The position numbers and the translations under genes were made by a program. The notes beneath the pieces are model-generated. The model made no database searches. It had not been told where the DNA came from and saw nothing but the letters and a program-made list of their open reading frames with translations. A DNA stretch of 64,000 bases, from assembly GCF_905475395.1 (NCBI RefSeq), contig NC_058339.1, positions 12,222,001 through 12,286,000 on the forward strand, given 5' to 3'. The DNA is from Chrysoperla carnea (Eukaryota > Arthropoda > Insecta > Neuroptera > Chrysopidae). Positions 4,008 through 58,517 of the stretch are shown here, piece after piece (the stretch's first letter is position 1; the number at the start of each line of letters is the position of its first letter).

Positions 4008-4655
4008 AAAACAAGTGAAAACAAACAATTGACTGAGTTAATTGTTGAAATACCATGCATAGTCAGTGTTGATTTCTTTATCACATTACACATATACAAA
4101 CATGTGACATATACATAACTAATAAAGTATAGTACATATGTAAATGACTTTATAGGTTTCTGCATTACCGACCGACATTTAGTGTATAGTTTGTACACAT
4201 ATTATAAAATTTCCGCCTTATTGGGGCCCTCACGGGTAAACAGTGATGTTTACGAAAAAATGTTTCAAACAAAAGTTGTTTAATTTTTGATAAGGAACAT
4301 TTTTTACATTTAAACTTTTGTTCTATCTCTAACGGTTTATAAGATGGGTCCTACGGACCCAAGACCCAATTGACCTATGATGCTCATTTACGAACTTGAC
4401 CTCACTTTTTACATCCTGAGTACGCTGTAAAAATTTCAGCTCGATATCTTTTTTCGTTTTTGAGTTATCGTGTCCACAGACGGACGGACGGACGGACGGA
4501 CGGTCGGACGGACGGACGGACAACCGGAAATGGACTAATTAGGTGATTCTATGAACACCTATGACAAAATTTTTTTCCTAGCATCATTATTTTTAAGCGT
4601 TACAAACTTGGGACTAAACTTAATATACTATGTATATTTCATATATGCATGGTAT
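4008..4655 (-). repeat. Family A dispersed repeat, long copy 1
   Basis: A near full-length copy of the most abundant repeat here. In this orientation it begins with the ACAAGTGAAAACAAAC end and finishes near a TATACCATG-like end. In between are the conserved blocks (AACTTTTGTTCTATCTC, ACGGACCCAAGACCCAATTG, ATAACTCAAAAACG) and a GGAC tetranucleotide run. No coding capacity is visible. I do not know its superfamily. Confidence 0.8.
4478..4520 (+). repeat. (GGAC)n microsatellite inside family A
   Basis: About ten imperfect tetranucleotide repeats (ACGG/GGAC register). The same position in other family A copies has zero to four repeats, so this copy has expanded. The short open frame on the minus strand here reads only as Arg-Pro-Ser-Val repeats. 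Confidence 0.85.
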
Positions 4656-6027
4656 AATAATGCATTTTGTTAAAATATATCCCTTCAAGGACCCACAGTA
4701 AAAATAGTTAGCTAGATTATAGATCTCACTATTAAATTTTGAATTTTTAGTTGATTTTGTGAAATTTTTGTATTTAAAAACGCTGATTATGATAATTCGA
4801 TATATCGAATTCATAATGTACTTTGATTTAATAAACTAAGATTTCGTTTGAAATTAATAAATAAGCTATTAATTATATTTTAAAAACTATAATCTTTGAC
4901 ACGAATTCATACAAAAGAAACACTATCATCATCCTTATCAATTGGTATTTTAATGGATTATATTTTTAGCTGTATATATTCACAGGTCAACATAAAAACA
5001 ATTTCAAAAATTATATACACATTAAAAGCTTTGTTTGAATATTGGATTGGTTTCCTCCAGCCGTTGTGATCCATACTGAGCGAGAAACAGGGTCTAATCT
5101 ACTTAAGGATAGGTTGCAAAAGGCCAGAGTCTTTCAGATGCGTTGAAAGTTTTTCAACGCATTTATAAGTTTTTTCAACAAATTGCGATTTAATAAAAGT
5201 TGTTTTGTAATTTATAGATTATAACCTGTTATATCCAAAACTGACAAAGCCACACTGACTTCACACTATATAATACATACGAAGCGAACTTTTCACTTCT
5301 ATCGGCAGTCCCTATGACTGCCATTTTTTTTTTCTGAGTTTATCATTGAGCCTGTGTAGTGTACCTATACGCTAAAGTCAACATGAACAACTTGACCCTT
5401 CGGAAAATTTTGATCTAATTTAAAATGCAATTTCTTTACGTTATGTGTATATTGAATCCAAAGTAAATAATAAAGCCTTTTTAGTAGGAGAGCCCAAGAG
5501 GGGATTTGTGTAGTAACTCGAGCTCGTCAGATTAAAATAAGGGGGGTTCCTTGGGTCTTCCTTAGTACTTCCACCAAATATTAGCCCTAAATATGGGGGG
5601 ACCCGCGTAGGGCAGACGGTCAGATTAGTAAAAACAAAATTGCGATAGGTGAATTAACTCGAGAGCACCAGATTAATATATGGTGGGTTAATTACATGCT
5701 AAAAAATGTAAATTTCGATAATATGAAAAAATTTTGATTACGCTCGAGTTACTACGGGTAACAAACTTTGCAAGCCTCCCATTTCTTTGCGTCTCTCCCC
5801 TACTATTTAGAATGTTTCTAAACATAAAAATCTTGTCTTTAGTTATTTTCTCTTTATTTATGATCATCAGCTGCTGTTGATTTCTGTACTTATATGGTAC
5901 AAATAAATAAAGGGTCAAAAGAGAAGAGGGTGAAGTTCAAGCAATAATAAAAGTGAGATAATAACCATAAAATTTAGTTACATTGAAACATTTTCATGTT
6001 TACAATTAATGTTACAAATAAGATTTC
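4656..6027. other. Intergenic region upstream of the carboxypeptidase
   Basis: No gene is recognised. It contains a 25-bp hairpin at 5138-5162 (ATGCGTTGAA / TTCAACGCAT) and a somewhat GC-richer patch at about 5480-5690, in which CTCGAG-type motifs followed by CAGATTAA-like sequence occur twice. The last 100 bp before the carboxypeptidase start are AT-rich; no reliable promoter element was identified. Confidence 0.5.
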
Positions 6028-7446
6028 GTGATGCTGTTTTTTAATTTAATTTTATTTACATTCGTTGTATCGAGTTGGTGTAAATTTCCAAATGTGTATC
6101 CAAAGTTAAAATCATATCAGCATGCTCCTGATCCTGATGATCCAGGTGCACCATTATTTTTAACACCACTAATAAATTCTGGAAAAATATCTGAAGCACA
6201 GAATGCGGCAAAAGTTGATTGGATCGGTTTTAAAAATACAACATCTTACGCTGGATATTTAACTGTTAATGAAAAAACGAATTCAAATTTATTTTTCTGG
6301 TTTTTCCCTGCATTAAACGATTTTGAAAATGCCCCAGTTATACTGTGGTTACAAGGTGGTCCAGGAGCAACATCACTTATTGGATTATTTACTGAAAACG
6401 GTCCATTTGTTATAAAAACTAAGCATGGTGTAAAATTGCGTAAATATTCCTGGCATTTATATCATTCAGTAATATACATAGACAATCCAGTGGGAACTGG
6501 ATACAGTTTTACTGATAAAGATGAAGGATATGCTCAAAATGAGACAGCGGTTGGAGAGGATTTGTATAATGCATTAGTACAATTTTTCAAACTATTTCCA
6601 AATTTACAAAAGAATCCATTCTTTGTCACTGGTGAATCATATGCTGGAAAATATGTGCCGGCTTTTTCATATACAATCCATACAAAAAATCCGAGTGCGG
6701 GTTTAAAAATTAATTTACAAGGACTTGCAATGGGAAACGGATTGAGCGATCCTGGAAATCAACTATTATACGGTGATTATTTGTATCAACTAGGTTTGGT
6801 AGATAGCAACGGAAGAGATTACTTCCATAAAGTTGAAGATCAATGTAGAGCGTTTATAAAGGGCGGCAATTGGATTGAAGCTTTTGAAACATTCGATAAT
6901 CTCTTAAATGGTGATACGATTAATGGTTCATCCTTATTTTCAAATATAACTGGATTTCATTTTTATTTTAATTATTTGCATAGTGAAGACTACGATAGCA
7001 TGGATATGATGAGTTCATATGTTCAAAAAAATTATATTCGAAAAGCAATTCATGTTGGTAATAAAACATTTAATGTTGAAACGTCGAAGGTTGAAGATCA
7101 TTTGAAACAGGATGTAATGCAGTCGGTAGCACCGTGGATTATACAGTTGTTAGCCAATTATCGTGTACTGATTTATAATGGTCAGTTGGATATTATTGTG
7201 GCATATCCATTAACTGTGAATTATTTAAAGAATTTAAATTTTAATGGTGCAAACGAATATAAAACTGCACCACGTAAATTGTGGTATGTTGATTCAGAGT
7301 TAGCTGGATACGTTAAAACTGCTGGTAATCTTACAGAAGTTTTAGTAAGGAATGCTGGACATATGGTGCCTACAGATCAACCCAAATGGGCTTTAGATCT
7401 TATATCTAGATTTGTTGCTAATAAACCATTTGTTACAGAAGAATAA
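6028..7446 (+). CDS. Secreted serine carboxypeptidase (S10 family, vitellogenic/CPVL type)
   Basis: A hydrolase that removes C-terminal residues from peptides, usually at acidic pH in lysosome-like compartments or the gut lumen. The 472-residue single-exon frame is close to normal family length. An N-terminal hydrophobic segment (about 1-17) fits a signal peptide. Family motifs are in order: WLQGGPGATS near 108 (oxyanion region), DNPVGTGYSF near 151, GESYAGKY with nucleophile Ser204, NGQLDIIV with Asp388, and NAGHMVPTDQP with His445. The triad is therefore complete, and the Glu before the serine, typical of acidic carboxypeptidases, is present. Several Asn-X-Ser/Thr sites suggest glycosylation. 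The start is the first of two adjacent Met codons before the hydrophobic segment. Lack of introns is compatible with an ordinary insect gene or with retroposition. It resembles CPVL and mosquito vitellogenic carboxypeptidase; the true substrate is unknown. Confidence 0.95.
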   Translation: MMLFFNLILFTFVVSSWCKFPNVYPKLKSYQHAPDPDDPGAPLFLTPLINSGKISEAQNAAKVDWIGFKNTTSYAGYLTVNEKTNSNLFFWFFPALNDFENAPVILWLQGGPGATSLIGLFTENGPFVIKTKHGVKLRKYSWHLYHSVIYIDNPVGTGYSFTDKDEGYAQNETAVGEDLYNALVQFFKLFPNLQKNPFFVTGESYAGKYVPAFSYTIHTKNPSAGLKINLQGLAMGNGLSDPGNQLLYGDYLYQLGLVDSNGRDYFHKVEDQCRAFIKGGNWIEAFETFDNLLNGDTINGSSLFSNITGFHFYFNYLHSEDYDSMDMMSSYVQKNYIRKAIHVGNKTFNVETSKVEDHLKQDVMQSVAPWIIQLLANYRVLIYNGQLDIIVAYPLTVNYLKNLNFNGANEYKTAPRKLWYVDSELAGYVKTAGNLTEVLVRNAGHMVPTDQPKWALDLISRFVANKPFVTEE

Positions 7447-7641: not shown

Positions 7642-8277
7642 CTATCTAAGATTGTCCTTTTTCAGAATATCTTCTTTCAGGAGTAACTTGCAGTTCGCAA
7701 ATGGAACTCCCGGGTGTTTATTGATGCTTGTGTCCGGCAGCATCGTGCCATTTCTGGCAACCTTGTCGGCTTCACAATTTCCTGGAATGTCCCTGTGTCC
7801 CAGTACCCATACCAGGTCTACATTCATTCGTTCCGCTAGCTCATTTAAGGACGTACGGCAGTCCTGTGCTACCTTTGACGTTAGACAGACTGAGCTGAAG
7901 GATTTAAGAGCCGCTTGGCTGTCGGTGAAGATTGTAATGTCCCTGCACCTAAGGGTGTTCAGTCTTGGACATTCACAAACCTCGTGAATAGCCATCACTT
8001 CCGCTTGATACACACTACAGTGATCCGGCAGCCGAAATGATAGACGCAGATCAAGATCTTCAGAAAAGATCCCACAACCCACCTTCTTCTCTAATTTAAA
8101 TCCGTCAGTGTAGAAAACAACGCCCTTTGGCTTAACTAGTTTCTCCTCCCAATTCTGTCTGGAAGGAATCTTTACTGAGAACCTGTTCTCAATGTTAGGA
8201 GAAGGTAAAACGTAGTCAACGGATTTTGGAAATGTAGGGGGGTAGTAAGGGTTCAATTTTAATTTATTTTCACACAT
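7642..8277 (-). mobile_element. RNase H domain of a non-LTR retrotransposon (5'-truncated)
   Basis: The 211-residue frame carries a complete RNase H domain: YTDG (Asp58), QAEVMAIHE (Glu93), FTDSQAALKS (Asp119), GHRDIPGN (His161) and EADKVARNG (Asp171), so all acidic catalytic residues are present. The order, and the short C-terminal extension, match the RNase H that follows the reverse transcriptase in I-like and related LINE elements. No reverse transcriptase or endonuclease is present; an in-frame stop lies a few codons upstream of the first Met, so this is a 5'-truncated copy. The frame has no internal stop, which suggests a fairly young insertion. It is GC-richer than its surroundings. 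It lies between the carboxypeptidase and NDUFA6 genes; host use is possible but unsupported. Confidence 0.87.
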
Positions 8278-8311
8278 TAAAACATAAAATATCGGTTAAA
8301 AATTAAATATA

Positions 8312-10189: not shown

Positions 10190-11036
10190 TATAGAGTGAT
10201 TTTTTAAATAGTTTCCACCGCTACATTTCGACAATGAAAAGGCAAATTTGATCCGATCTTATTGGCATTTTTTTTGAAACCCACTAATTTTAGGTCATTA
10301 TTTTCCGCTGTGATGCTAGTTTTTCGCTAGCTATCATTTATGTGCTTAATTCCAGAACCAGGATTTCACTATCTGGAAACCTATTGGAACCAGGTTAATT
10401 TTGATCACAAATTTGAAAAGTATAACCCAAATTTAGTAGGATTATATACTTGGTTTATCAAAATTGGATAAAATTTGGATGTGATAGAGCAAAATTAAAT
10501 TTTTTGGATTCTGATGACGTCATAAAGTTAAAAAATTCGATTTTTTTGGTAAAAAAGGCAAATTTTATCCGATCCAATTGGAATTTTTTTTGAAACCCAC
10601 TAAAGTTAGGTCATTTTTTTCCACTGTGATGCCAGTTTTCGCTATCTTTCACTTATGTGCTGAATTCCGGGATCAAGATTCCACTTTCTGGAAACCCATC
10701 AGAGCTAGGTTAATTTAGATCACAAACTTGAAAAGTATGACCCAAATTTAGTAGAATTACATACTTGGTTTATCAAAATTGGATAAAATTTGGATGTGAT
10801 AGAGCAAAATTAAATATTTGGATTCTGATAACGTCATAAAGTTAAAAAATTCGATTTTTTTGGGAACACAGGCAAATTTGATCCGATCCTATTGGAATTT
10901 TTTTTGTAATCCACTAATTTTGGGTCATTCTTTTTCGTTGTGATGTCAATTTTTCGCTAGCAGGAGGCTCCGGTTGCCCTATAATAGTTTCAGCCCTGAA
11001 TACAAGGGTAGAAACTTTTTTTAAATCACTCTGTAT
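10190..11036. mobile_element. Family C MITE-like element 1 with internal satellite
   Basis: The ends are inverted repeats: TATAGAGTGATTTTTTAAA at the left and a TTTAAATCACTCTGTA right end. A TA next to each end suggests a TA target. The inside is made of two full units and part of a third of a 315-bp tandem repeat; unit starts (GGCAAATTT.ATCCGAT) are at 10241, 10557 and 10871. One unit holds the palindrome TGACGTCA within CTGATGACGTCATAAAG; in the next it is changed to AACGTCA. No coding sequence. Confidence 0.7.
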
Positions 11037-15958: not shown

Positions 15959-16305
15959 AAAACAAGTGAAAACAAACAATTGAATGAGTTAGTTGCTGAA
16001 ATACCATGCATAGACAGTGTTGATTACTTTATCACATTACACATATACATGTCACACAAAATGATATTCCCATATAATACATAGTATACAATTAACGCCC
16101 TCAAGAGAAAACAGTGATGTTTACGAAAAAATGTTTCAAACAAAAATTGGTTATTTTTTTATAAGGAATATTTTTTACATTTAAACTTTTGTTCTATCTC
16201 TAACGGTTTACAAGATGGGTACTACGGACCTAAGACCCAATTGATCTATCTTGCTCATTTACGTACTCGACCTCACTGTTTACGTCCTGAGTACGCTGTT
16301 AAGCG
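15959..16305 (-). repeat. Family A partial copy 2
   Basis: Starts at the ACAAGTGAAAACAAAC end and stops abruptly at the ACGTCCTGAGTACGCTG block. Family D unit sequence follows at about 16312-16400, so the second half is missing. Confidence 0.75.
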
Positions 16306-23485: not shown

Positions 23486-24490
23486 TATACAGGCTGGGCT
23501 ATTTTATTCTATACACCTAAATATCTCGTTTTGAACTTAACCAATCAAGTAATAACTTGAACAAAAATTGTAGATAAATATTGGGAGCCCTTTTCCCAGA
23601 ACTAAGAAAATAAGTGATAGCTAGCCAAAAACTGACATCATAGCTGAAAAGAATGACCCAATATTAGTAGGTTTCAAAAAAAATTCCAATTGGGTCATAC
23701 TTTTCAAATTTATGATTAAAATTAATCTAGCTCTAATAGGTTTCAAGAATGTGGAGGCCTGGCCCCGGAATTAAGCACATAAGTGATTGCTAGCCAAAAA
23801 CTGACATCACAGCTGAAAAGAATGACCCAATATTAGTGGGTTTCAAAAAAAATTCCAATAAGATCGGATAAAATTTGTCTGTGGTATCAAAAAAATCGAA
23901 TTTTTAACTTTATGACGTCATCAGAATCCAAAAAATTTAATTTTTCTCTATCACATCCAAATTTTATCCAATTTTGATAAACCTAGTATGTAATTCTACT
24001 TAATATGGGTCATACTTTTCAAATTTGTTATCAAAATTAACCTAGCTCTATTAGGTTTCAAGATTGTGGAGTCCTGGTTCCGGAATTAAGCACATAAGTG
24101 ATAGCTAACCTAAAACTCACATCACAGCTGAAAAGAATGACCCAAAATTAGTGGGTTTCAAAAAAAATTCCAATAAGATCGGATCAAATTTGCCTTTGTT
24201 ATCAAAAAAATCAAATTTTTTAACTTTATGACGTCATCAGAATCCAAAAAATTTAATTTTTCTCTATCACATCCAAATTTTATCCAATTTTGATAAACAA
24301 AGTATGTAATCCTATTAAATTTGGGCCATACTTTTCTAATTTATGATCAAAATTAACCTAGCTCTATTAGATTTCAAGAATGTGGAGGTTTGATGCCGAA
24401 ATTAAGCACATAAGTGTTAGCTAGCGAAAAACTGACATCACAGCGAGATATTTTGGTGTATACATAGATTAATATGACACATCCTGTATA
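23486..24490. mobile_element. Family C MITE-like element 2 with internal satellite
   Basis: The ends form inverted repeats: TATACAGGCTGGGCTATTTT at the left and a right end that reads TATACAGGATGTGTCATATT on the minus strand, extended by ACACC.AAATATCTCG on both sides, with a TA target. The interior holds about three 315-bp units in the opposite orientation to element 1. The TGACGTCA palindrome is present near 23925 and 24228. No coding sequence. Confidence 0.72.
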
Positions 24491-25040: not shown

Positions 25041-25380
25041 TATACCATGTGTGTTTGTACCATCTAGGCATATACATATCTGTAGTATGACAAAATATAT
25101 CTGTTTAGTAATGCGTCTAAGCGAGAGGTATTATATACATGTGTTGTAAGACTACAGATACGATACGACAGATCTTCTGTTGTATGCATGCAGAGAGTGG
25201 GAGTTTTGTTGCATACTTACTAGTTATCTGTAGCTAAAAAACTCCCACTCTCCAAGCGTCTTCCAACTAATGTTCAATACATGTATATAATACCTCTCGC
25301 TTAGATGCATTACTAAACGGATGTATTCTGTCATACTACAGATATGTATATGCCTAGATGGTACAAACACACATGGTATA
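25041..25380. mobile_element. Foldback element with about 100-bp arms
   Basis: The left arm (25041-25143) starts TATACCATGTGTGTTTGTAC; the right arm (25280-25380) is its reverse complement with few differences and ends GGTATA. A second smaller inverted repeat, GAGAGTGGGAGTTTT with its complement, sits in the middle (about 25195-25255). The TA at each end suggests a TA target site. Non-coding. Confidence 0.82.
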
Positions 25381-26852: not shown

Positions 26853-27150
26853 ATTCCATGTATATATGTAATATATATCAAGGTATACTAAGTTTAGTCA
26901 CAAGTTTGTAACGCTTAAAAGTCCATTTTCGGTTGTCTGTCCGTCTGTCCAGAATGTAAAGAATGAGGTCGAGTTCGTAAATGAGCAAAATAGGTCACCT
27001 TTATCTTGGGTAGGATCCATCTTGTAAACCGTTAGAGATAGATTAAAAGTTTGAATGTGAAAAATGTTACTAATAAAAAAATAAACAACTTTTGTTTAAA
27101 ACATTTGTTCGTAAACATCACTGTTTGCTCGTAAGGGTGAAAATTAGGAC
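26853..27150 (+). repeat. Family A partial copy 4
   Basis: Starts CCATGTATATATGTAATATA and runs through the GTCC repeat and GTTAGAGATAG blocks to CACTGTTTGCTCGTAAGG. The CACTTGTTTT-type end is missing. Confidence 0.78.
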
Positions 27151-28644
27151 AAAATTTTGGTGTCCCTTTTCTCCAAAAACTATAAAAGATAGGAACTTGA
27201 AAATTTGATGGTAGCTTCAACTAGTAATCTTGTGAAACATTCTCGAAAAACGAGAAAAAATTCTAGAAAATACTTTCGAAATTAAAAAAAAAAACTGAAT
27301 AAATGGCATGACTGTTTTGGTTTTTAAACTCTTAATAAGGATATTGCAGGTTCCTACATTCAATAAAAATTCTACGGAACGCACATATATACAAGTCCGG
27401 GTCGCGTATAACCGAAAAGTGTCTCTTTAAACCACACTTCTACGATTTTTCAGGTATTTACTATCGGTTTTTCGGAAGGCAAGTTAACATCAATTGATTC
27501 TTTCGAAATACAACAGATTCTAGTTATTGAATAAATCAAACTATGCATGTTCATGTTTATTATTTTACTTTCAAACATAAAATATCAAAAATATTTTTGA
27601 TTTAGACGCGCTTAAATGATTTTAAGTATTTTTATATATATTTATTGCATGTATTCGGATTATAGGTGTAATTAAACTAAAATCAAATGGAATTCATTAT
27701 TGAACTGACCTTTGAATATTAATGAAATCAATTAATTTTAACAACAAAAATTTATTCTTCAATACAAAAATCATTTCTCAGTGAGCGAAAGAGCCTTGTT
27801 ATAACACTTTTTTTAAAAATAGTCTTATAGTAGCTATAGGTACGAATTTATTATTTGTAATTTCCCGTTATACTGTCTTGCGTTATTTTTATAGTGCTAC
27901 ATATTTTAGTGAAATATTTTAAAGAATTATAGCTATCCCATCAAAAACATAAATAAATATATAAAGAAGAATTATTAAGTGAAAGAAAGATTTTGGTATG
28001 AGGATTGAAATGCATCGTCCTCCACAATATTAACGATGTCTTAGTTGTTAAGGTAGTTCCTCCGCGACCGTCCAGTCAAAAAGTTTTGGATTAATACTAT
28101 CATTCAGTGCATTATCTGTGCTATGACTATTATACATATACCATATATTATTTTCAAAAGACTGTAGTTACTCACAATTATATATTCTATACGTATACAC
28201 ACACATACTTTGATATCTATCTTTACCATTAGTTTTTATATGCTTTCCACAAAAATCATCGCTAAAACGAGTTATTTATTTAAGTTTTTTATCGAAACTA
28301 TATGGTAAATAATTTTTATTTTTATTTATATATTTTCTAAATATAGTATTCTACATTATATTAGTTTTTCATAGAGATGGTGGACGTCATTCATTGGTAA
28401 ATAAATATAATATTTGTAAATTTGTGTATTTTTATACACTTCTCCCATGTACACGTACAAATTGCGTCACTTTTAATTGCTAATATCTCATGTATGGCAT
28501 GGTAAATCATCTTCTAATTTTAACAGCAAGTGTATTATGAATTAAATATTTTATATTCTGAGTTTTGAGAAATTCTTGGAATATCACTTTCGTGTAGGTA
28601 CTACCTTAAGGTTCAGGAGAGTAAAATCCGCCATATAACACTCA
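27151..28644. other. Gene-free stretch with a decayed tRNA-like sequence
   Basis: No gene seen. At 27932-27955 ATCCCATCAAAAACATAAAT closely matches the end of the large palindrome at 39808, suggesting a solo end of that family. At about 28030-28090 a GTCTTAGTTGTTAAGG segment looks like a decayed tRNA-derived head. Confidence 0.35.
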
Positions 28645-32156: not shown

Positions 32157-32703
32157 GCTATATGAAATATACATGGTATATTAAGTTTAGTCCCAAGTTT
32201 GTAACGCTTAAAAATAATGATGCTAGGAAAAAAATTTTGTCATAGGTGTTCATAAAATCACCTAATTAGTCCATTTCCGGTTGTCCGTCCGTCTGTGGAC
32301 ACGATAACTCAAAAACGAAAAAAGATATCGAGTTGAAAATTTTACAGCGTACTCAGGACGTAAAAAGTGAGGTCAAGTTCGTAAATGAGCATCATAGGTC
32401 AATTGGGTCTTGGGTCCGTAGGACCCATCTTGTAAACCGCTAGAGGTAGAACAAAAGTTTAAATGTAAAAAATGTTCCTTATCAAAAATTAAACAACTTT
32501 TGTTTGAAACATTTTTTCGTAAACATCACTGTTTACCCGTGAAGGCGCAAATTAGGCATAAATTGTATAGTATGGATTATATGAGAATATCAGTTATGTA
32601 TGTGTGACATTTATGTATGTGTAATGTAATAGAGTAATCAACACTGTCTTTGTGTGGTATTTCAACAATTAACTCAGTCAATTGTTTGTTTTCACTTGTT
32701 TTT
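32157..32703 (+). repeat. Family A long copy 5
   Basis: Nearly complete: starts TATGAAATATACATGGTATA and ends TCAATTGTTTGTTTTCACTT. All the internal blocks are present, with two GTCC repeats. Confidence 0.85.
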
Positions 32704-33346: not shown

Positions 33347-33635
33347 ACCCTAGTAGCTCATTTGGTTAAAGCGTAATCAATTGCGTTCGAGGTATGTCTA
33401 GAGTAGCGGGTTCCATTCTAGCCGTCACAAAAAAAATTAACTTAATTAATTAGTTGTGATGGGCTGGTGTAGTCCATGGTATATGCATGAAGGAGGTGCA
33501 CTCGACTTCTCAAAATAATGAGGAGCCGATAAATGAAATTATCAACGAAAAGGGTGGAAAAACACATATATGGTATCACAATGGACTCTATATATCTGTC
33601 TACCTTTGAAGACAGTCAATATAGCCATAACCTAT
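33347..33635 (+). mobile_element. tRNA-derived SINE (family B), copy 3
   Basis: A box TAGCTCATTTGGTTAAAGCG and B box GGGTTCCATTCTAGCCG are both recognisable, followed by the body (GATGGGCTGGTGTAGTCCAT, CATGAAGGAGGTGCAC). It ends GACAGTCAATATAGCC and then ATAACCTA. This is the copy with the clearest order of head, body and tail on the plus strand. Confidence 0.85.
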
Positions 33636-37023: not shown

Positions 37024-37310
37024 TTTTAATTTGCTTTTATAGCAAAAACTGTAAGAGATAGAACAAAAGTTTAAATGCAAAAAATGTTCCTTGCATAAAA
37101 TTAAACAATTCTGTATGAAAAATTTTGTTGTAAAGGTAATTGTTTTCCCGTGAAAAGCAAATAAAGTAAAAAATTAAATTACAATTTTCCAAAAAACGGT
37201 AAGAGATAGAACAAAAGTTTAAATGTAAAAAATGTTCCTTACATAAAAATAAACAACTTTTGTTTGAAACATTTTTTCGAAAAAACAATCATTTTCCCTC
37301 GAGAAAGTAA
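37024..37310 (-). repeat. Two tandem partial family A segments (copy 6)
   Basis: The block AAGAGATAGAACAAAAGTTT and AAATG.AAAAAATGTTCCTT occurs twice, about 150 bp apart, each followed by AAACAA..TTTGTTTGAAA-like sequence. A tandem duplication inside a decayed copy. Confidence 0.7.
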
Positions 37311-37879: not shown

Positions 37880-39292
37880 TTGAGGGTCAACCCATGCGCA
37901 GTACTATTACATGTAATCCTCGTGTGCGCACTAGCAATTTTTAAGGCCTACATGTGCGCAGTAACAAAATATAAATTTAGCGTATGCGCAGTTGCAAGAT
38001 TCAGGATAAATGCATTCGCACAACTATAATTATTGTTTAATCTGTGGGCACTTCCCGGATATAATACCCAAATATGCGCACTAACAAAATATAAAGTCCC
38101 TGTATGCGTAGTTGTAATATTCAGGATCAACCCATGCGCAGTACTATTACATCTAATCCACATGTGCGCACTAGCAATATATAAGGCCTACATATGCGCA
38201 GTAGCAAAATATTAACTAAGCTAATGCCAGTTCTAAGATTCAGGTAAAATGCATGCGCAGAACTATCATTTGTGATTAATTTATGCGCATTTTCAATATT
38301 TAAGGACCAAATATGCCCATTTACAAAATATAGGGTTCCCGTTTGCGCAGTTGTAATATTTAGAATCAACCCATGCGCAGTACTATTTCATGTAATCCAC
38401 ATGCGTGTACTAGCCATATTTAAGGCCTACATGTGCGCAGTAACAAAATATAAATTCAGCGTATGCGCAGTTGCAAGATTCAGGATAAATGCATGCGCAC
38501 AACTATAATTATTGATTAATCTGTGCGTACTTCCCGGATATAATACCCAAATATGCGCACTAACAAAATATAAAGTCCCTGTATACGCAGTTGTAATATT
38601 CAGTATCAACCCATGCGCAGTACTATTACATCTAATCCACATGTGCGCACTAGCAATATATAAGGCCTACATATGCGCAGTAGCAAAATATTAACTAAGC
38701 TAATGCGCAGTTCTAAGATTCCGGTAAAATGCATGCGCAGAACTATAATTTGAGATTAATTTATGCGCATTTTCAATATTTAAGGACCAAATATGCCCAT
38801 TAACAAAATATATGGTCCCTGTTTGCGCAGTTGTAATATTTAGAATCAACCCATGCGCAGTAATATTTCATGTAATCCACATGCGTGCACTAGCAATATA
38901 TTAGGCCTACATACGCGCAGTAACAAAATATAAATTCAGCGTATGCGTAGTTGTCAGATTTAGGATAAATGCATGGGCCGAACTATAATTTGTGATTAAT
39001 CTGTACGTACTTCCAATATATAAGACCCAAATATGCACACTTACAAAATTTAAGGTCAATGTGTGCGCAGTTGTTATATTCCAGATTATCCCATGCGCAG
39101 AACAATTATATGGGATCAAAGTGTGCGCAATACCAATATATAAGACCCAAATATGCGCACTTACAAAATATAAGGCCCCTGTATGAGCCGTTGTAATATT
39201 CAGGATCAATCCATGTGCAGAACTATTATATGAAATCAAGCTGTGCGTATTACCCATAAATAAGGCCTAAATATTTGCAGTTACATAATATC
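37880..39292. repeat. Nested satellite: 30-bp, 120-bp and 480-bp periods
   Basis: About 47 head-to-tail units of 30 bp, nearly all holding a TGCGCA-like core. Four unit types follow a fixed order: (1) CATGCGCAG.ACTATTA, (2) TGTGCGCACTAGCAATAT, (3) TATGCGCAGTAACAAAATAT, (4) TATGCGCAGTTGTAATATTC. Four units make 120 bp, and the variant pattern repeats every 480 bp (anchor CCCATGCGCAGTA at 37891, 38370 and 38850). The first two 480-bp blocks are very similar; the third is more diverged and incomplete. Because 30 is a multiple of three, open frames with 10-residue periodicity arise on both strands. Confidence 0.92.
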
Positions 39293-39632
39293 TGTCTGCC
39301 CGTCTGCACATCTGTCTGCCAACACGATAACTCAAAAACGAAAAGAGATATTAAGATGAAATTTTTATAGCGTACTCAGGACGTAAAAAGTGAGGTCAAG
39401 TTCGTAAATGATCATTATACGTCAATTGATTCCTGGGTCTGTGGAACCCATCTTGTAAACCGTTAGAGACATAACAAAAATTTTAATGTAAAAAATATTC
39501 CTTATAAAGAAATAACCAACTTTTGCATAAAACATTTTTTCGAAAACATGACTGTTTACCCATGAGGACGCAAATTAGGCGTAAATTATATAGAATGTAT
39601 TATATAATAATCAATATCAGTTATATGAAAAT
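39293..39632 (+). repeat. Family A partial copy 7
   Basis: Starts in the GTCTGCC region, where the satellite stops, and runs through ATAACTCAAAAACGAAAAGA to GGCGTAAATTATATAG. The first part has been replaced by the satellite. Confidence 0.78.
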
Positions 39633-39807: not shown

Positions 39808-40787
39808 ATCCCACCAAAAACATAAATGTGTAAAAAGGCGTAGATGAATTCCAATAAACTCAATTACGTCAGCCCAAAAAAGTTGTGAAATCCCGTAGAG
39901 AAAAAAATTCTTCGAAAAAAAATTATAAAAATGGCATAAATTTATTGCGTAACTTTTCCGTAAAGAAACATTAAAGTATTACATTAGCAACTTTTCGGTG
40001 ACTTCATACCTACACGCACCTGTATAGGAGAACAAAAGATAATCGTTAACCCCCTACTATCTCCCTCCTCCCCTCTAATGTTATGACGTAATAATTTTTT
40101 CACAACTTTTATGAAACATCAAAATTTAAATTTAAACAATCAAAGTATTCTTTAGATTAAAGTCAAGCACCTACTTAACAAAGGCCTAATTTTTTTTACT
40201 AAAGTAAGAAAATTATTGGTTTAAATTTCTTGTCAAGTTTCTCCTTAGTACGTATTTATTTAATATTTTACTTCGCAAGTTTTTTATTTTTAGATTCGTT
40301 TTTATATTCCGAAAACTTGCGAAGTAAAATATTAAATAAATACGTACTAAGGAGAAACTTGACAAGAAATTTAAACCAATAATTTTCTTACTTTAGTAAA
40401 AAAAATTAGGCCTTTGTTAAGTAGGTGCTTGACTTTAATCTAAAGAATACTTTGATTGTTTAAATTTAAATTTTGATGTTTCATAAAAGTTGTGAAAAAA
40501 TTATTACGTCATAACATTAGAGGGGAGGAGGGAGATAGTAGGGGGTTAACGATTATCTTTTGTTCTCCTATACAGGTGCGTGTAGGTATGAAGTCACCGA
40601 AAAGTTGCTAATGTAATACTTTAATGTTTCTTTACGGAAAAGTTACGCAATAAATTTATGCCATTTTTATAATTTTTTTTCGAAGAATTTTTTTCTCTAC
40701 GGGATTTCACAACTTTTTTGGGCTGACGTAATTGAGTTTATTGGAATTCATCTACGCCTTTTTACACATTTATGTTTTTGGTGGGAT
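39808..40787. mobile_element. Near-perfect 980-bp palindrome, about 475-bp arms
   Basis: The left arm 39808-40283 and right arm 40312-40787 are reverse complements with a 28-bp spacer. The outermost bases are ATCCCACCAAAAACATAAAT and the reverse complement. Matching positions sum to 80595 both at the outer ends (39810 and 40785) and at the inner ends (40275 and 40320), so there is no net length change between the arms. I saw no mismatch in the parts compared. No open frame of note. No clear target duplication. It resembles a foldback element or a very recent inverted duplication. Confidence 0.92.
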
Positions 40788-41243
40788 TATGTAATACAAA
40801 AATTCTTTCAATATTATTATTACTATTATTATTAACAAAAAGCAATTTTTAAAACGCAAAAAAATATAAAAAATTAGAAAGTTATTAATTTATATAATAA
40901 TTTTAAACAATTAAAATTTATTTAACAAAAAAAAAAAAAAAATGTGTTCGAAATTAATTTTTAATAAACCGCATAAATAAAATAAGTCATGTGAAACTAT
41001 AAAAAATGAAATTATAGAGAAATTTTTAATTTGTTTTTTGTTAAAATTAATTCATAGTCAAATAATTAATTCAAATCAAAATTCTTTAATTATTTTGCAG
41101 ACTCAAATCAAATTTCGACTTAAATCAAAGCATTTGCTTGGATAATAGATTTACAACTGGTTATAAAAAATATATTGATAGTTTGTAAGTTAACTTTTTT
41201 CAACCATTTAGAGAAATACTTAATCTTCTGCTTTCTTACAGAT
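40788..41243. other. Gene-free AT-rich stretch
   Basis: Very AT-rich with long A runs. Nothing recognised. Confidence 0.4.
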
Positions 41244-41245
41244 TA

Positions 41246-41720
41246 GGGTATTATCGTTAGTCAAAAATAAATCATGAAATTTGAAAAAAGTTAAAATTTA
41301 TGTAAAAATATACTTAAATATTAAAATTAAAAATCGTAATTTTTAAACTATATATCACGTGACCCAAAACGCGGGTAAGCCCTGCTGTGATGTCATAGCG
41401 GTATGATTCATAGACCATCAGTTAGTTCAGTGTAGACAGCTGGGTATAATATATACATAGATAATAAGTATTTATATTTATTATAATCAGATGTTTATGA
41501 ATATATCTGTCAAACTTATTTGTGTTAATTCGCATAGTGATACCCATACTACGTCATCAAATTGGATGCTCGCGTTTTTGACAGTTTAAAAAAGGTTTAA
41601 AATTTAATTTAAGTTTTTGGCAAGAAAGTGTGTGTATTTTTCCGAAATTAATTTTGTGGTGGCTTTTTATTAGCAAAATCAACATTTTGAAGTACTTTTT
41701 TCAAAAATAGTATAATACCC
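41246..41720. mobile_element. TA-target MITE with GGGTATTAT ends
   Basis: The left end GGGTATTATCGTTAGTCAAA and the right end (reading GGGTATTATACTATTTTTGA on the minus strand) are inverted repeats, each bordered by TA, as for Tc1/mariner-type elements. The interior has TCACGTGACCCAAAACGCGG and AGCCCTGCTGTGATGTCATA, and is GC-richer. 475 bp, non-coding. Confidence 0.68.
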
Positions 41721-42499
41721 TATATTACTTTTGAAGATTTTGCTTGCGTGACCCAATTACTTTAATAATATTTGTTGATTAATAATTCGTCAAAATCGGT
41801 GAAGAAAATTGACCAAAAAAAGTACTTGTTCATTTATTTTAAAACAAAAGTTGGACATTTGAGAAAAACATTAAGCGATAATTGAATAGGTAAATAAAAA
41901 ATTACATGATTCAATTTATTAATATTAATAAGATTTAAATCGATACAACATTTCAAATATTTGAAATCAAATTTTTAATGACAATCAAAGACCATATTAA
42001 AATTGTTCGTAAATACGTAGGTAGTTATTATTTATTTGTATTAATAAAATTACATGTTTTCAATTTCCAATTTATGTATTTAATTGGAAATTGAATAAAA
42101 GGTATATAGATGGTTAATTATTTTCATTCAGATTGATTTGAACGCTTCACATATTTATCGTTAATTTTACAGTTAATTTCAATAATTATCTGTGTAAAAT
42201 TATAAAATATTGTTTTACAATTAGTAATTTCCAGTCATATAACAGTTTCGTATCCTATTGTTCAATTTACCGCTTTCACATAGATGTGCTGTTTTGTTTT
42301 AACTTGACAAATGGAAATAATTTAATAGCCTTCTATTCTCGAATTTATCAAGAGTTATCATCAATGGTTGTTTTGTTAAATATGATATAGAACAACTAAT
42401 AGTTACGATTTTACAAAATATCTTATAAATTTTTTCTTTCCTCTCATGAACACTATGTTCCTATTCATATTAAAAATGTTTAAATTGCTTTGAATGTCT
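41721..42499. other. Gene-free AT-rich stretch
   Basis: Nothing recognised. Confidence 0.4.
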
Positions 42500-42933: not shown

Positions 42934-43475
42934 CCATGTATATATGTAATATATATCAAGGTATACTAAGTTTTGTATAAGTCTCAAGTTTTGGTATAGG
43001 TGGTCATAAAATTTTGGTATAGTTGATCATAAAATCACCTAATTAGCCCATTTCCGGTTGTTTATCTGTCCGTCTGTCCGTCTGTCCATCTGACAACACG
43101 ATAACTCAAAATCAAAAGATATCAAGCTGAAATACAGCGTGCTAAGGACGTAAAAAGTTGAGTTCGTAAATGAGCAACATAGGTCAAGGTCTTGGGTCCC
43201 TAGGACTCATCTTGTGAACCGTTAGAGATAGAACAAAAGCTTAAATGTAAAAACTGTTCCTTATAAAAAAATAAACAACTTTTGTTTGAAATATTTTTTC
43301 GTAAACATCGCTGTTTACCCGTGAGGGCGTAAATTGTATAGTATGTATTATATGAGAATATCAGTTATGTATGTGTAACATGTATGTATGTGTAATGTGA
43401 CAGATTAACCAACACTGTCTATACATGGTATTTCAACAATTAACTCAGTGAATTGTTTCTTTTCCCTTGATTTAA
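42934..43475 (+). repeat. Family A long copy 8
   Basis: Starts ACCATGTATATATGTAATAT and ends at TTTCAACAATTAACTCAGTG, AATTG and TTTC. A short internal duplication of the TTTTGGTATAG.TG.TCATAAA block is present at 42990-43035. Confidence 0.85.
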
Positions 43476-43964
43476 ACTAAATTGACATGTAGGAAATAAC
43501 AGTTTTAAAATTTGACATACAAATGTAGAATGCTGTTTCTCCATTTAATTTCTCCAGTTAATTAGTGTAAGTTATAGAACATGAGAAATTGCTTATGTAT
43601 TTGTTGATAATTTTTTGATTATTTTCAAGATTTTAATTTACTGTTAATTTTATAAATTACAAAGTGATTATGATTTATTTATAAAAACGTCGAATACTTA
43701 CATCCGGGATATATTTATCGATATACTCGTACAAGCATAGTATATAGTAACATTTTTTTCTCATTAAAATTTGATTAAAAATGACATTGAAAAATTGTTT
43801 AAAATGTATGAAATTATTTATTATTTTTATTATTTTATAAAAATTACAGTAATATAATACATAATTATTTAGTAATTTTTTTAACGCTTGCTGTCAAAAA
43901 ATTATACCGTTCTTATAGCATAGAAAATATTTATATTATTATTTCTTCTATTCTTCTATTTAAA
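43476..43964. other. Gene-free AT-rich stretch
   Basis: Nothing recognised. Confidence 0.4.
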
Positions 43965-44700
43965 AACTATTCGACCAGTCAACAATTGCACCTGATTTTT
44001 GTACTTTTTGGGTCAAAATTATCTTATACTGAGTTTTATCGAAATTGGAGATAAAAAAATTTTTCGATTTTTTGAAATTTTTTTAAGGGGTACCCCTTTG
44101 AAAAAAATCAAGAAAATCGGGAAAAAAATATTGTTTTGGAATTTGATGAAACTCGGTGGATGGGGTAATTTTGATCCAAAAAGTATAAAAATCGGGTTAA
44201 TTTAATGATTGGATGCAGAGTTTCTGAGATATCGCAATATTTGGATCAATTTTAGTCCGTATCTCAAAAACTATTCGACTAGTCAAGAAATGCACCCGAT
44301 TTTTGTACTTTTTGGGTCAAAATTACCTTATATACTAAGTTTTATCGAAATTGGAGATAAAAAAAATTTTTCGATTTTTTGCAATTTTTTTAAGGGGTAC
44401 CCCTTTGAAAAAATCGAGAAAAACGCCAAAAAAATTTTTGTTTTGGAATTTTATGAAACTCGGTGGAATGGGTAATTTTGATCCAAAAAGTATAAAAATT
44501 CGTTTAATTTAATGATTGGATGCATAGTTTCTGAGATATCGCAATATTTGGATCAATTTTAGTCCGTATCTCAAAAACTATTCGACCAGTCAAGAAATGC
44601 ACCCGATTTTTGTACTTTTGGGGTCAAAATTACCTTATATACTGAGTTTTATCAAAATTGAAGACAAAAAATTTTTTTTCTTTTTTTGCAATTTTTGGTG
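43965..44700 (+). repeat. Family D tandem array (2.4 units, no terminal block)
   Basis: Two full 305-307-bp units and part of a third; GGATGCAGAGTTTCTGAG at 44211 and GGATGCATAGTTTCTGAG at 44518 mark the period. The CTAG-type terminal block is not present on either side. Open frames at 43999-44205 and 44209-44475 simply mirror the repeat. Confidence 0.78.
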
Positions 44701-45225: not shown

Positions 45226-45793
45226 AACAAGTGAAAACAAACAATTGACTGAATCAATTGTTGAAATACCATGCATAGTCAGTGATGATTTCTTTATCAC
45301 ATAACACATACATACATGTGACATAACACATACATAACTGATATTCAAGTATGGTACATACTATAAAATTTCCGTATAAAATTTCCGCCTAATTGGCGCC
45401 CTCACGGATAAACAGTGATGTTTACGAAAAAATGTTTCAAGCAAAAGTTGTTTATTTTTTGATAAGGAACATTTTTTACATTTAAACTTTTGTTCTATCT
45501 CTAACGGTTTAAAAGATGGATCCTACGGACCCAAGACCTATGATGCTCATTTACGAACTCGACCTTACTTTTTACGTCTTGAATACGCTGTAAAAATTTC
45601 AGCTCGATATCTTTTTTCGTGTTTGAGTAATCGTGTCCACAGACGGACGGACGGACAACCAGAAATGGACTAATTAGGTGATTCTATGAACACCTATAGC
45701 AAAATTTTGTGCGTGGCATCAATATTTTTAAGCGTTACAAGCTTGGGACAAAACTTTAGTATACCTTGCATATTACATATATGCATGGTATAA
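45226..45793 (-). repeat. Family A long copy 9
   Basis: Nearly complete, starting ACAAGTGAAAACAAACAATT and ending ATTACATATATGCATGGTAT. Carries three GGAC repeats. Confidence 0.85.
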
Positions 45794-47284: not shown

Positions 47285-47600
47285 CTATCGAGGCAATTGG
47301 GTCTTGGTTCCGTAGGATCCATCTTGTAAATCGTTAAAGAAAGAACAAAAGTTTAAAATTTTAAATCTAACAATTCTTTATAAAAAAAATTAACAACTAC
47401 TGTTTACCCGTGAGGGCGCAAATAAGGTTATAACATTATATAGTATGTATTATATGGGAGTATCAGTTATGTATCTTTCCTTATTTACATGACGTAAAAA
47501 AAGAAAAACAAAAATTAAGTAATCAACACTGTCTTTATATGGTATTTATATATATATATAATTAACTCAGTCAATGGTTTGTTTTCACTTGTTTAAAAAT
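47285..47600 (+). repeat. Family A partial copy 10
   Basis: Starts at GGCAATTGGGTCTTGG and reaches GTCAATGGTTTGTTTTCACT. It has a TA simple repeat insertion near 47547. Confidence 0.75.
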
Positions 47601-53094: not shown

Positions 53095-53212
53095 GGCAAC
53101 CGCACACAGTGTTCCCAAGCGGTCACCCATCCAAGTACTGACTGTACCCAATGTTGCTTAACTTCAGTGATCGGGCGAGAGCCGGTGTACTGACTGTGAC
53201 ATAGTCTTACGC
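53095..53212 (-). rRNA. 5S rRNA-like copy (5S-derived repeat or pseudogene)
   Basis: Read on the minus strand, the 118 bp match the structure of animal 5S rRNA. Recognisable parts are TACACCGGCTCTCGCCCGAT, CACTGAAGTTAAGCAAC (box A region), GTACTTGGATGGGTGACCG (box C region) and CTTGGGAACACTGTGTGCGG. The first 15 or so bases differ from the usual 5S start. The internal Pol III control parts look intact. Surrounding sequence repeats on both sides (52990-53050, 53249-53306), so this is either one unit of a small array or a retroposed 5S-type SINE. Confidence 0.8.
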
Positions 53213-55286: not shown

Positions 55287-55815
55287 ACAAGTGAAAACAA
55301 ACAATTAACGGAGTTAATTGTTGAAATACCATGAATAGAAAGTGTTGATCACATTACACATACATACATGGATGGCACACATACTGATATCCCCATACAT
55401 ACAATACAATTTACGCATAATTTTCGCCCTCACGGGTAAACAATGATGTTTACGAAAAAATGTTTCAAACAAAAGTTGGTTATTTTTTTATAAGGAATAT
55501 TTTTTACATTTAAACTTTTGTTCTATATCTAACGGTTTACAAGATGGGTCCTACGGAGACCCAATTGACTTATGTTGCTCATTTACGAACTCACTTTTTA
55601 CGTCCTGTAAATTTCAGCTTGATATCTTTTTTCGTTTTTGAGTTACCGTGATGGCACACAGACGACAGACAGACAGACAGACAACCGGAAATAGACTAAT
55701 TAGATGCTTTTATGAACACCTATACCAAAATTTTGTTCATTGTATCAATATTTTTAAGCGTTATAAACTTGGGACTAAACTTAGTATACCTTGGTATATT
55801 TCATATACATAGTAT
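55287..55815 (-). repeat. Family A long copy 11
   Basis: Starts ACAAGTGAAAACAAACAATT and ends TTGGTATATTTCATATACAT; the tetranucleotide block reads GACA repeats here. Confidence 0.85.
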
Positions 55816-57956: not shown

Positions 57957-58517
57957 TATACCATGTATATATGAAATATACATAGTATATTAAGTTTAGT
58001 CCCAAGTTTGTAACGCTTAAAAATATAGATGCTAGGAAAAACATTTTGTCAAAGGTATTCATAAAATCACCTAATTAGTCCATTTTAGGTTGTCCGTCCG
58101 TCCGTCCGTCTGTGGACACGATAACTCAAGAACGAAAAAAGATTTCAAGCTGAAATTACAGCGTACTCAGGACGTAAAGAGTGAGGTCAAGTTCGAAAAT
58201 GAGCATCATAGGTCAATTGGGTCTTAGGTCCGTAGGACCCATCTTGTATGCCGTTAGAGATAGAACAAAAGTTTAAATGTAAAAAATGTTCCTTATCAAA
58301 AATAAAACAACTTTTGTTTGAAACATTTTTTCGTAAACATCACTGTTTACCCGTGAGGGCGCCAATTAGGCGGAAATTTTATAATATGTACTATACTTGA
58401 TTATCAGTTATGTGTGTGTCACATGTTTGTATGTGTAATGTGATAAAGAAATCAATACTGACTATGCATGGTATTTCAACAATTAACTCAGTCAATTGTT
58501 TGTTTTCAATTGTTTTC
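57957..58517 (+). repeat. Family A long copy 12
   Basis: Nearly complete and close to the consensus: starts ACCATGTATATATGAAATAT and ends CAATTAACTCAGTCAATTG and TTTGTTTTC. Confidence 0.87.

Follow-up and report, generated by a model that had tools for sequence, protein, structure and literature searches.

The closest described systems to the locus reported here are the foldback elements of Drosophila, FB together with Tetris and Galileo, and the MITEs with long TIRs. Non-coding copies of Tetris and Galileo are mostly very long inverted repeats, and tandem repeats of the TIR-220 type lie inside the arms of such elements. The published descriptions that we drew on give target-site duplications of 7 to 10 bp for Tetris and Galileo (PMC4079207, PMC4168063) and an identity of 97.5% between the TIRs of one Galileo copy (PMC4168063). 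In Drosophila virilis, Tetris, a foldback element, and DAIBAM, a MITE, are described as sharing no more of the TIR than its outer part (PMC4079207). A further point of comparison is ISL2EU, of the PHIS superfamily, in which an autonomous partner encodes a DDE/THAP transposase and a YqaJ protein. ISL2EU is reported to duplicate AT within A/AT/T, and its termini usually begin with GG (PMC4482050).

The window, by which we mean the whole 64-kb stretch of DNA that was analysed, contains a palindrome with long arms. Its parts, and a related terminus found elsewhere in the window, are as follows:

39808..40283, plus strand: left arm, 476 bp, 29.4% GC
40284..40311, no strand: spacer (loop), 28 bp
40312..40787, minus strand: right arm, the exact reverse complement of the left arm
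39808..39827, plus strand: left-end terminal 20 bp, the terminus in common with 27935
40768..40787, minus strand: right-end terminal 20 bp, the left-end terminus inverted
39808..39809, no strand: AT, candidate for the left copy of a 2-bp target-site duplication, provided that the CCC at 39810 is the start of the element; if not, AT belongs to the terminus
40786..40787, no strand: AT, candidate for the right copy of that 2-bp duplication, with the same proviso
27935..27954, plus strand: a related terminus that stands alone and agrees with the arm end at 19 of 20 bases

The original prediction had described a near-perfect palindrome whose arms, of about 475 bp, stay in register without net indel and, in the parts compared, without mismatch, around a spacer of 28 bp. 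A base-by-base alignment of the arms bears this out: each is 476 bp long, and the two are 100% complementary, with 0 differences in 476 positions and no indel, on either side of a 28-bp spacer at 40284–40311. The inverted repeat makes up 952 of the 980 bp (97%), a share of the kind expected of foldback-type elements in the broad structural sense. When centres across the window were scanned with 700 bp on either side, the longest exact arm run was the 476 bp of the palindrome and the runner-up was 52 bp; a run of 476 bp is far above the chance level for the sequence of this window. The symmetry is lost abruptly at both outer ends, where the flanking DNA is unrelated: 57 of the first 200 positions past the ends are complementary, compared with about 59 expected from base counts. 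Within the arm, only short two-copy matches of 11 to 19 nt were found as internal repeats. The motif AACTTTT occurs four times in the arm, a number of copies reached in one of 261 other segments, and we give this no weight, as the motif was picked post hoc.

The palindrome resembles Tetris and Galileo in consisting mostly of a very long inverted repeat, and it resembles Tetris in a second respect, as its outer end is in common with the end at 27935 much as that of Tetris is with DAIBAM in the account cited (PMC4079207). It differs from the Drosophila foldback elements in its spacer of only 28 bp, in arms that are fully identical and free of TIR-220-type repeats, and in showing no duplication of the length reported for them. 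We do not assign it to the families Tetris or Galileo proper, given arms without internal tandem repeats and the missing 7- to 10-bp duplication. With the long-TIR MITEs it has in common a length below 1 kb, an AT-rich composition, two inverted ends and no domain found in the palindrome frames tested; it departs from them in that the arms fill nearly the whole element. We consider it probable that the palindrome is a copy of a non-autonomous, foldback-type DNA transposon of insects (a long-TIR MITE) of about 976 to 980 bp. The established part of this reading consists of the identical arms, the short spacer, the abrupt ends and a terminus that is common to a second locus. Counting against it are the lack of a target-site duplication of at least 3 bp at any of 19 offsets, and the lack of a second full copy and of an empty site in the window.

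The second locus had been anticipated by the original prediction, which placed an outlying copy of the outer end at 27932 and suggested from it that the outer ends belong to a dispersed family. The end is real and lies at 27935 instead, and the repetition of the ends is supported by this one further copy in 64 kb. Counting a single T upstream of the terminus, 20 of 21 bases match the arm end over 27934–27954; apart from that preceding T, the match starts at the first base of the arm, and the similarity covers the terminal 20 bp and then ends. Matches with at most one mismatch in 20 bases are expected 3.3 × 10−5 times in the window, a figure derived from base composition only, for a length chosen after the match had been seen. 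With up to three mismatches allowed over 19 bases, three matches were found compared with 0.12 expected from 100 shuffles, two of the three being the palindrome's own ends. No convincing second copy of the remaining arm was found in the 64-kb window, where hits besides the one at 27935 were at most 44 bp long with E of at least 0.025, and no second full copy of the palindrome was found there either. As it is the terminus that recurs at 27935, with no convincing match to the remaining arm, the outer ends resemble a shared transposon terminus, one that would also be borne by another element with a different interior. Assigning the ends to a dispersed family would rest on one 20-bp match.

By inspection, no inverted partner of the end at 27935 stands out in the window; the best candidates on the minus strand have 4 to 5 mismatches in 20 bases, which is close to what the runners-up on the plus strand show. 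Since it has no recognisable inverted partner, the end at 27935 would be a relic or a truncated copy. The palindrome's terminus is absent from five other close inverted repeats of the window, which were aligned and judged by eye. A MITE-like inverted repeat at 25041–25380, with arms of about 100 bp and few mismatches, has ends unlike those of the palindrome. In prokaryote genomes, the 19-base end matched once in each of 11 stretches, which we take as chance. Three patterns gave 0 matches among viral contigs, and there was no match among phage records, in collections that may omit the source genome or near ones.

Direct duplications were sought at 19 boundary offsets, from −6 to +12 bases, and no target-site duplication of at least 3 bp was present at any of them. 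The sole candidate is AT, which is a possible target-site duplication; 2-bp duplications also arise by chance at three further offsets. An AT duplication would be a point of likeness to ISL2EU, but the palindrome's target reads T/AT/T and its start CCC, in place of A/AT/T and the usual GG. As the target and start of ISL2EU do not fit, we have left the superfamily unassigned. No paralogous empty site was found in the window: the joined flanks match their own two halves and give one 39-bp hit at 82%. For the right flank, 40788–42000, the window offers no further match at E 1 × 10−3, and the dispersed repeat to the left of the palindrome stops before the arm. We also considered, and rejected, that a 476-bp unit had inserted twice independently, once in each orientation; by eye, there is no duplication of at least 2 bp in the flanks of either arm.

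A flanking duplication of 2 bp only, and a second copy not seen in the window, are also consistent with an origin in place, whereby 476 bp, belonging to an old repeat or to ordinary DNA, were copied during repair by template switching or snap-back and the product was never mobile as a palindrome. Such an origin has a precedent in yeast, for which template switching is reported to make and homogenise short inverted repeats (PMC8604942). It leaves to be explained why the segment stops at a terminus that is common to 27935, as could happen if the end of an old element had been the template, and we regard it as unlikely.

The outer ends bear equally on whether the palindrome is a foldback chimera that came from a read or from the assembly, an option that the original prediction had raised and under which perfect arms would be expected. 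PMC12870357 reports foldbacks in about 0.55 to 0.6% of ONT genomic reads; in the artefact reads it describes, the later portion aligns over the earlier one in reverse orientation, and the two reads illustrated there are termed nearly perfectly palindromic. The same source reports virtually no foldbacks in PacBio HiFi reads, for three PacBio samples only, and the window's own copy of the carboxypeptidase described below lies on a contig of 94,407,144 bases, which suggests a probably long-read, scaffolded assembly. An artefactual foldback read would also be expected to retrace the flank. Here both sides stop at the same 20-base, TIR-like terminus with unrelated DNA beyond, which weakens the case for an artefact and leads us to judge it improbable.

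Helitrons have a 5′ TC and a 3′ hairpin with CTRR, and they insert between A and T. Both ends of the palindrome can be read as TC after A, and the lone end at 27935 can likewise be read as A/TCCC; an inverted pair of Helitron-type 5′ ends, with an A/TC junction and without duplication, might thus be considered, and Helitron-like CTAG/T ends occur at other places in the window. However, the right end of the palindrome, GGGA, mirrors the left end and is not CTRR, which does not fit a Helitron. To our knowledge, there is no such kind as a palindromic Helitron, and we find this origin extremely unlikely. Elsewhere in the window, CTAG and then T follows GGGT and a few bases at six places (19383, 29078 and 62267 on the plus strand; 48698, 13935 and 11787 on the minus strand), which we take to be Helitron-like 3′ ends. 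In two further matches to the CTAG pattern, at 33408 and 43194, the next base is C or G.

No open frame of at least 100 aa overlaps the palindrome. The two open frames overlapping it that were compared with Pfam, which cover the element in part, gave no match at E 0.1, which favours a non-autonomous transposon as far as these frames extend. Between 34 and 47 kb there are 46 open frames of at least 55 aa; seven of them, including these two, were put to Pfam, with 0 matches at E 0.1. At the threshold of gathering scores, Rfam gave one match in the window, which is 5S-like and lies away from the palindrome.

The predicted transcript of the palindrome folds into one long stem at −795.3 kcal/mol, compared with −181.2 on average over 20 shuffles, a result that follows from the symmetry of the palindrome alone and so is no separate evidence. 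If transcribed, the palindrome would resemble the hairpin-RNA (hpRNA) loci of insects in its long dsRNA stem, and it differs from them in being known from DNA sequence alone. A mosquito study names long inverted-repeat transcripts as a source of endo-siRNAs (PMC4423592), and the palindrome, if transcribed, could possibly be such a source, as the original prediction had proposed. That it is a locus maintained for the production of endo-siRNAs is a different matter, which we hold to be very unlikely: a transposon-like terminus accounts for the ends without any function, and the statement in PMC12076837 that MITEs exist solely in DNA form speaks against routine transcription.

The surroundings contain protein-domain frames as well as plentiful other repeats. 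A serine carboxypeptidase frame (Pfam S10) occupies 6022–7446; among the best 120 of its 5200 matches, those given with an organism name are from insects, and beetles are common among the highest-ranking ones. Just past it, on the minus strand at 7642–8295, lies a frame with an RNase H domain that probably derives from a retrotransposon, and a C2H2 zinc-finger frame is found at 1339–1809. The 5S rRNA-like match, at 53095–53212 on the minus strand, has the full length of the model, and its 47.8 bits exceed the gathering score, which is 38; our guess is that it is perhaps a pseudogene or the head of a 5S-derived SINE.

Beside the palindrome lies a dispersed repeat (39294–39624) with ten other matches in the window, in both orientations and 69 to 85% identical: 4197–4501, 16072–16297, 26950–27156, 32288–32597, 37194–37283, 43065–43368, 45334–45647, 47294–47455, 55395–55681 and 58091–58395. 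The copy at 4197–4501 is overlapped by a GACG microsatellite at 4479–4521. Directly before the repeat (about 39294) there is a minisatellite at 37887–39291, rich in TGCGCA, with about 11 copies of 120-bp units and higher periods of 240 and 480 bp. Three tandem arrays with units of 307 to 316 bp in 2.3 to 2.4 copies, at 10237–10961, 23690–24444 and 43962–44696, are akin to other repeats that are dispersed in the window.

If the palindrome is a non-autonomous foldback-type transposon, its structure could have arisen in one step: if a parent element with this terminus had one of its ends copied by snap-back or template switching, the resulting inverted dimer would have both arms and, at its outer ends, both termini. 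A transposase made elsewhere would then bind the two termini as a pair and move the element as a unit. The identity of the arms may stem from a recent birth or an equally recent last homogenisation, or it may be renewed by template switching or gene conversion. Read-through by a transcript would yield a long hairpin RNA, cuttable by Dicer, as a putative by-product. A more elaborate scheme, in which the palindrome renews itself by copying arm from arm at rounds of replication or transposition, keeps its identity indefinitely and tunes the silencing of elements with the same end through read-through dsRNA, has in our view very little probability.

With insect-like mutation rates of 2.8 × 10−9 to 6 × 10−9 per site and generation, 0 differences in 476 positions set a 95% upper age limit of about 1.12 to 0.52 million generations. 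The description of the palindrome as very young in the original prediction is therefore not required, since the identity bounds the age loosely, at up to about 0.5 to 1.1 million generations. Nor does the identity of the arms give a date by itself, because template switching between arms, as reported for yeast, can erase differences (PMC8604942), and homogenisation and youth cannot be told apart from one copy.

Most likely, then, the kind of this locus is ordinary, a foldback or MITE insertion, and it is the perfection of its arms that is unusual. According to PMC7999016, breakage and rearrangement are the higher risk for palindromes whose arms are long and similar and whose spacers are short. 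That a palindrome of this break-prone kind is intact here therefore hints at recent mobility or at ongoing homogenisation of the arms. If more copies exist, comparing the divergence from arm to arm with that from copy to copy would separate recent mobility from homogenisation.
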